IMG/VR virus record: IMGVR_UViG_3300020156_000080
Coordinates: 1-22,811 of that record
Strand: one strand, 5' to 3'
Source of the DNA: a virus
DNA: 22,811 bases
Shown in pieces: positions 8,580-8,825 of the stretch. Below the pieces are notes generated by a model. The model was not told where the DNA came from. It did no database searches and saw only the letters and a program-made list of their open reading frames with translations. The position numbers and the translations under genes were made by a program. How positions within the stretch are numbered: position 1 is the first letter of the stretch; the number at the start of each line of letters is the position of its first letter.

Positions 8580-8825
8580 GTACAACACGAGCGCGCCCGG
8601 TGCGATTTTGTTGTACCCGAGACCGGCAAACCGTACAACAAGGGCGATCCGGACCGGTGAAAGGAATGGACAGATGAAGGGAAAAGGTTAGCACGTGCAA
8701 ACGGATAGGCAGCAAACCGGGCAATGGCTTTTCAGCGTCGCGCCCATGATGGACTGGACGGACTACGACGAATTGCCGAGGGGAGACGGGGTCGAATCGC
8801 CCGATGTTGTACCTGGCTGTTGTAC
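8580..8825. repeat. Clustered GTTGTAC heptamers, candidate integrase arm-type sites
   Basis: GTTGTAC or its complement occurs at 8580-8586 (-), 8610-8616 (+), 8633-8639 (-), 8806-8812 (+) and 8819-8825 (+). Three lie left and two right of the dusA-like core at 8724-8762. The 8608-8616 and 8633-8641 copies form a perfect inverted repeat, TTGTTGTAC and GTACAACAA. A random 7-mer would be expected well under once here. The layout mimics lambda attP, with arm sites on both sides of a core. A sixth copy lies at 9682-9688. Confidence 0.6.
8695..8762 (+). other. attP core with dusA 5' fragment (integration site)
   Basis: A GTG at 8695, preceded by AAAAGG at 8682-8687, opens a + frame whose codons include FSVAPMMDWTD, ending near 8761. 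This is the conserved N-terminal motif of tRNA-dihydrouridine synthase DusA; E. coli DusA has FSVAPMLDWTD. After it the frame leaves the DusA pattern and becomes the antisense of the caspase-like gene. dusA is a known integration target for phages and islands. The fragment lies beside the integrase and between GTTGTAC clusters, so it is read as attP. The exact crossover bases cannot be set without the host sequence, but 8724-8762 is the likely identity block. Confidence 0.8.

Follow-up and report, generated by a model that had tools for sequence, protein, structure and literature searches.

A temperate phage attachment site that very probably gives host dusA a replacement 5' end

Results and Discussion

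Anatomy of the locus

The stretch of DNA analyzed here (the window) is a linear IMG/VR virus record of 22,811 bases, IMGVR_UViG_3300020156_000080. It carries an integrase gene on the minus strand (7496 to 8566), the product of which matched Pfam Phage_integrase (E 6e-18) and the integrase family phrog_1. GTG 8566 is the probable start of this gene, since alignments with the majority of relatives begin only near residue 25 or 26 of the 381-amino-acid open reading frame. Residues R215/R216, H300, R303, H326, and Y335 are invariant in the seven integrases aligned (from the window, relatives, and phages), and among them we assigned what is presumably the RHRH-plus-Tyr catalytic set of tyrosine recombinases; the window protein has both the RHRH residues and the Tyr.

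Divergent from the integrase gene, a plus-strand frame opens at GTG 8695 to 8697, at a distance of 129 nt from the probable start of that gene and two codons after an in-frame TAG (8689 to 8691), and its window translation reads MQTDRQQTGQWLFSVAPMMDWTD. The frame passes from MQTDRQQTGQWLFS into VAPMMDWTD (8737 to 8763) and then through 53 codons without likeness to DusA. Based on translation, alignment, and the frame test described below, we designate the GTG and the 13 codons that follow it (8695 to 8736) a putative phage-supplied dusA leader. The stretch AAGGGAAAAGG (8677 to 8687, plus strand), the 3' end of which lies 7 nt short of the GTG, resembles a ribosome binding site and may serve as that of the leader. 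Relatives L036 and L040 have a GTG at the equivalent aligned position. These features confirm in the sequence what an earlier note on this DNA had described, a GTG-initiated frame with the DusA N-terminal motif and an upstream ribosome binding site beside the integrase. A scan for a consensus promoter upstream of the leader found none, which we count against our preferred explanation.

The minus-strand gene on the other side of the core encodes a caspase-like protein (267 codons, 8763 to 9566). The right arm of the site supplies the last codons of this gene, and the stop codon (8763 to 8765) overlaps the core by one base, the last of the core, in agreement with the placement at the core edge in the earlier note. 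In the window it sits between the right arm and an HTH regulator gene (9690 to 9989, minus strand; assigned by profile and synteny), while in relatives L035 and L036 it is absent from this position and the HTH gene directly follows the right arm. Judged by its translation, profile searches, and plasmid relatives, the caspase-like gene is best seen as probable cargo inserted beside the attachment site.

The caspase-like protein had no relative in viral_contigs, phage records, PADLOC, or NCBIfam; it gave three weak plasmid matches and, against solved structures, one weak match to asparaginyl endopeptidase (E 0.037). Its match to Peptidase_C13 scored 18.5 bits, below the curated cut-off of 22.8. 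H75-G76 and C112/C116 are invariant between the protein and two plasmid homologues, an alignment of three sequences only, and we take this His-Gly and Cys pair to be the mark of a caspase/C13-like (clan CD) peptidase. An AlphaFold model computed with no alignment (mean pLDDT 38) was too poor for a fold search. The product is perhaps a cysteine peptidase. One plasmid relative, L205 on Vibrio ponticus pVPon1, lies near genes for a SIR2 family protein and an AAA ATPase, a neighborhood that hints at a defense context.

Identity with host dusA and hybrid genes in relatives

The earlier note had called for a comparison with dusA of candidate hosts, and this revealed an identical block near the 5' end of the gene: the last 27 nt of the DusA-like frame (8737 to 8763), which encode VAPMMDWTD and which we term the attP core, match dusA of genome G263 at 27 of 27 nt. 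The search covered 297 genomes of one order, selected as the one to which the genome (G001) of one relative, L002, belongs; the host may belong to another. Within it, a longer block of 33 nt (8731 to 8763) was matched with at most 3 mismatches in 11 of the 297 genomes, and a degenerate core with at most 1 mismatch in 260. When the window leader was joined by script to the G263 dusA body, the result was a frame of 344 amino acids with no stop. A DusA-like query against the phage's own genome returned nothing; the window consists of the phage fragment alone.

Integrase relatives in genome_contigs lie predominantly beside dusA. In 28 of 34, a hybrid dusA with a core found by pattern is divergent from the integrase gene, and three more (L008, L017, and L034) adjoin dusA by tblastn, for a total of 31. 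Where the contig is long enough, the hybrid gene consists of leader, core, and a DusA body of about 310 to 330 codons. The remaining three (L022, L027, and L033, the last with an integrase split over frames) are not beside dusA and count against the preferred explanation. An attP-type site was seen in 10 of the 26 integrase relatives in viral_contigs and a hybrid dusA in 4, which leaves 12 in which no site was seen; 10 of these 12 contigs start at or near the integrase and thus offer no upstream sequence to inspect. The isolated phages AH2, BcepIL02, DC1, Haddon, F1Pa, and RHph_Y3_1, with integrases 46 to 60% identical to that of the window, all share a leader and dusA core 159 to 201 nt upstream of int (6/6 examined), with one to three mismatches to the consensus pattern in the core.

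Both junctions were present in six lysogens of relatives. On the integrase side the order is leader, core, and DusA body, and on the far side a native dusA 5' end is followed by the core and phage DNA. The attL/attR junctions that the earlier note had proposed to seek therefore exist at dusA in relatives, and these six junction pairs, together with the 31 of 34 relatives beside dusA, support its suggestion that the phage supplies a replacement 5' end. An exact search of viral_contigs with the window leader was empty and no lysogen of precisely this phage turned up, which we count against the explanation; a megablast search of phage records with the window gave one short match in a tail gene and no exact relative.

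In light of these data, we consider it very probable that positions 8567 to 8825 constitute an attP through which the integrase inserts a temperate phage into the 5' codons of host dusA, with the phage leader replacing the native N-terminus. The tyrosine recombinase would target the VAPMMDWTD codons near the dusA 5' end, binding the core and probably also the flanking TGTTGTAC repeats, with exchange occurring within ATGATGGA. At the left junction, the divergent int would be followed by the upstream region, GTG, and leader codons of the phage and then by the core and the host dusA body. The lysogen would thus make a DusA whose N-terminus is encoded by the phage, and the native dusA 5' end would come to lie at the opposite prophage end. 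We infer that the window phage acts as its relatives do and that its hybrid dusA would be expressed and active.

Constraint on the leader

A start codon in frame with the core was present upstream at 21 of 21 attP sites (19 contigs), while the other two frames had one at 6 and 5; counted per contig, the figures were 19 against 4 and 5. Four entries were excluded from the attP, repeat, and crossover counts: L107 and L158, the contigs of which stop at the core, as well as L135 and L092, which are copies of L038 and L091. Among 110 distinct integrated leaders, all 110 had an in-frame start, compared with 12 and 21 for the other frames (the accompanying count of 23 distinct attP sites still includes L107 and L158). 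A chance open reading frame was rejected as an account of the leader on this frame test.

Substitutions in the leader have a coding-like pattern. When leaders of equal length were compared in 39 disjoint pairs, the coding frame gave a pN/pS of 0.53 and the other two frames gave 1.00 and 1.36; the third codon position took 168 of 383 differences (p 1e-5). In the 60 nt upstream of the leader, it took 96 of 279 (30 pairs, p 0.37). The position test is the safer of the two, because the upstream control itself gave a pN/pS of 0.66 to 0.79. The pooled attL and attP comparison of codon positions drops only L107 and L158. The compared leaders are integrated copies, and host selection is therefore inseparable from phage selection in these values. 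We conclude from these substitution patterns that the leader is under coding-like constraint.

A simpler explanation for the leader could be that the core is a mere recombination target, with the start and upstream codons being passive remnants of host DNA under no selection for the readability of dusA. In favor of this view, the leaders are short, any 5' end taken from a host would likewise begin with its start codon in frame, and dusA is described in passages of PMC4482086 as dispensable in laboratory deletion libraries. Against it, an in-frame start is retained at every attP site, and differences between leaders favor third codon positions, which those in the adjoining 60 nt do not; these two results already put the explanation under strain. 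We regard it as highly improbable. Sequence data alone, from many phages, thus indicate that temperate phages can preserve part of a host gene with coding-like constraint, such that insertion does not silence the gene that is entered.

Proposed placement of the crossover

The conservation of codons across the core suggests where strands are exchanged. In 12 attP contigs found via their integrase and not via the core, the residues at codons −2 to 5 are conserved (F/L, S/N/A, V/I/T, A, P, M, M, and D/E, respectively), while the core W is kept in 6 of the 12 and the last core D in 5 of the 12. Because sites were seeded on ATGATGGA-like words with up to 4 mismatches, some of the conservation inside the seed is built in by the method, which has no bearing on codons −4 to −1. 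The six junction pairs differ to the left of ATGATG and then again from the D-W-T-D codons onward, and one pair, in G006, differs inside the proposed crossover segment itself (ATGATGCA versus ATGATGGA). The simplest reading of codon decay and junction pairs is that strand exchange takes place within ATGATGGA (8746 to 8753, plus strand). We propose that DNA to the left of ATGATGGA becomes part of DusA and is kept, while DNA to its right never does and drifts. The decay of codons on the right of the proposed crossover, and not on the left, also argues against the leader being a passive host remnant.

This placement bears on the caspase-like gene, which the earlier note had expected to be left nearly intact by integration. 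The gene should survive, and wholly intact if crossover occurs at 8746 to 8753: a far junction joined by script leaves the gene complete.

Candidate arm sites

The octamer TGTTGTAC occurs seven times in the window, compared with 0.10 expected. Five copies surround the core, at offsets of −157, −128, −104, +68, and +81. Three are in the left arm (8580 to 8587, minus strand; 8609 to 8616, plus strand; and 8633 to 8640, minus strand), and two are in the right arm, within codons of the caspase-like gene (8805 to 8812 and 8818 to 8825, both plus strand). By repeat count, offsets, and alignment, these are probably arm-type sites bound by the integrase. With int on one side and the dusA leader on the other, the three left-arm candidates would stand upstream of dusA in a lysogen. 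The sixth copy, beside the HTH gene (9681 to 9688, plus strand), is possibly a former right-arm site, as the right-arm site of L036 directly adjoins the HTH gene. The seventh, at 11875 to 11882, is inside another gene far from attP.

Similar arrangements are found in relatives, in which TGTTGTAC occurs at similar offsets in L036 (five copies), L035 (four), and L090 (four). More generally, an 8-mer with at least three copies flanks the core in 13 of 19 attP contigs compared with 4 of 16 control segments; the six without one (L027, L040, L043, L044, L106, and L110) and the four positive controls count against the preferred explanation. The 8-mer repeats of L035, L036, L090, L091, L146, and the window were matched by 0 of 200 shuffles. 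In lysogens, 86 of 113 integrase-side stretches contained a 7-mer with at least three copies, where mononucleotide shuffles predicted 2.8, and the same test inside dusA segments gave 10 of 70.

Alternatively, the TGTTGTAC repeats could be operators for a phage repressor or another regulator, to which the additional copies beside the HTH gene at 9681 and inside a gene at 11875 would lend some weight. This explanation is unlikely: five of the seven copies are grouped around the core, with offsets that L035, L036, and L090 largely share, and isolated phages with diverged integrases repeat other words at comparable offsets. Arm-like repeats of other sequence were found in five of the six isolated phages, and none were found in RHph_Y3_1. 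In the literature searched we found no arm-site map for the dusA integrase family, which is weak evidence that none exists. The map of a dusA integrase attP given here, with its core, crossover, and arm sites, is testable.

In the attP sites of L037 and L040, the first core is followed about 110 to 122 nt downstream by a second (VAPLMDWT) that has an in-frame start of its own. Right-arm TGTTGTAC copies lie at the usual distance from the second core and left-arm copies from the first, as if the site held a tandem copy.

Relation to known dusA elements

Farrugia et al. (2015; PMC4482086) described dusA-targeting integrases (DAI), and passages of that paper report 5' ends supplied by the element and a replacement beta strand. 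The window integrase matches all six phages listed there as DAI carriers (35 to 56% identity) and is thus homologous to DAI proteins. The DAI islands and prophages of those passages share with the window phage the integrase family, the semiconserved dusA target codons, and a divergent int; in those elements, and as predicted for the window phage, the 5' end of the element replaces the native one, which is kept at the far end. Two further marks of DAI elements are a place in the DAI clade, next to Rci, and excision that brings back native dusA. Compared with the DAI described there, the window phage is an alphaproteobacterial-type member with a caspase-like gene ending at the core. The text on DAI in the available part of PMC4482086 gives neither arm sites nor codon-level constraint. 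According to the same source, a prtN homologue is present in 60 of 94 DAI islands and is not required; the prtN profile PF11112 had no match in the window, and the controls were equally empty.

A second precedent is an IMEVchUSA3-type element, for which passages of PMC8409611 report experimental evidence that it gives dusA a promoter and N-terminus, with dusA expression from the element's promoter lower than that of the native gene. IMEVchUSA3 is a mobilizable Vibrio island with its own excision factor, rdfN, whereas none was identified in the window phage. SXT, as cited in the same passages, inserts in prfC and provides the promoter and N-terminus of the entered gene; it works as proposed for the window phage and differs in target gene and integrase. 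Because these parts of PMC4482086 and PMC8409611 already describe replacement of the dusA 5' end, the principle is published and the window phage is a further example of a known strategy. What is added here is the frame test, the third-position bias, the codon decay and crossover, the candidate arm sites, and the additional caspase-like gene.

A more elaborate possibility, which we hold only tentatively and consider rather doubtful, is that attP is a doubly constrained coding sequence, keeping a functional DusA start while placing arm sites upstream of dusA from which the integrase could control the gene. The crossover at the Met-Met-Asp-Trp codons would fix the target: these codons allow almost no synonymous change, so that conservation of the protein would guarantee the DNA target across hosts. 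Arm sequences would drift with the integrase, with their positions roughly fixed. If this were true, dusA in lysogens, and with it tRNA dihydrouridine, could be under the control of the phage integrase.

Several loci have more than one dusA core or integrase. In G194:C6 (153983, 174383, and 230752) and G017 (L033 and L193), several cores or integrases stand in a row beside one dusA, which suggests elements stacked at the same site. L212 (G053:C19:5900-8300) has two dusA cores 530 bp apart with a full DusA frame after the second and resembles the relic of an element that has lost nearly everything except its two attachment sites. Finally, OR820920.1, labeled as a Bacillus pumilus phage, encodes an integrase 43% identical to that of the window, which is unexpected outside Proteobacteria; the host label is perhaps wrong.
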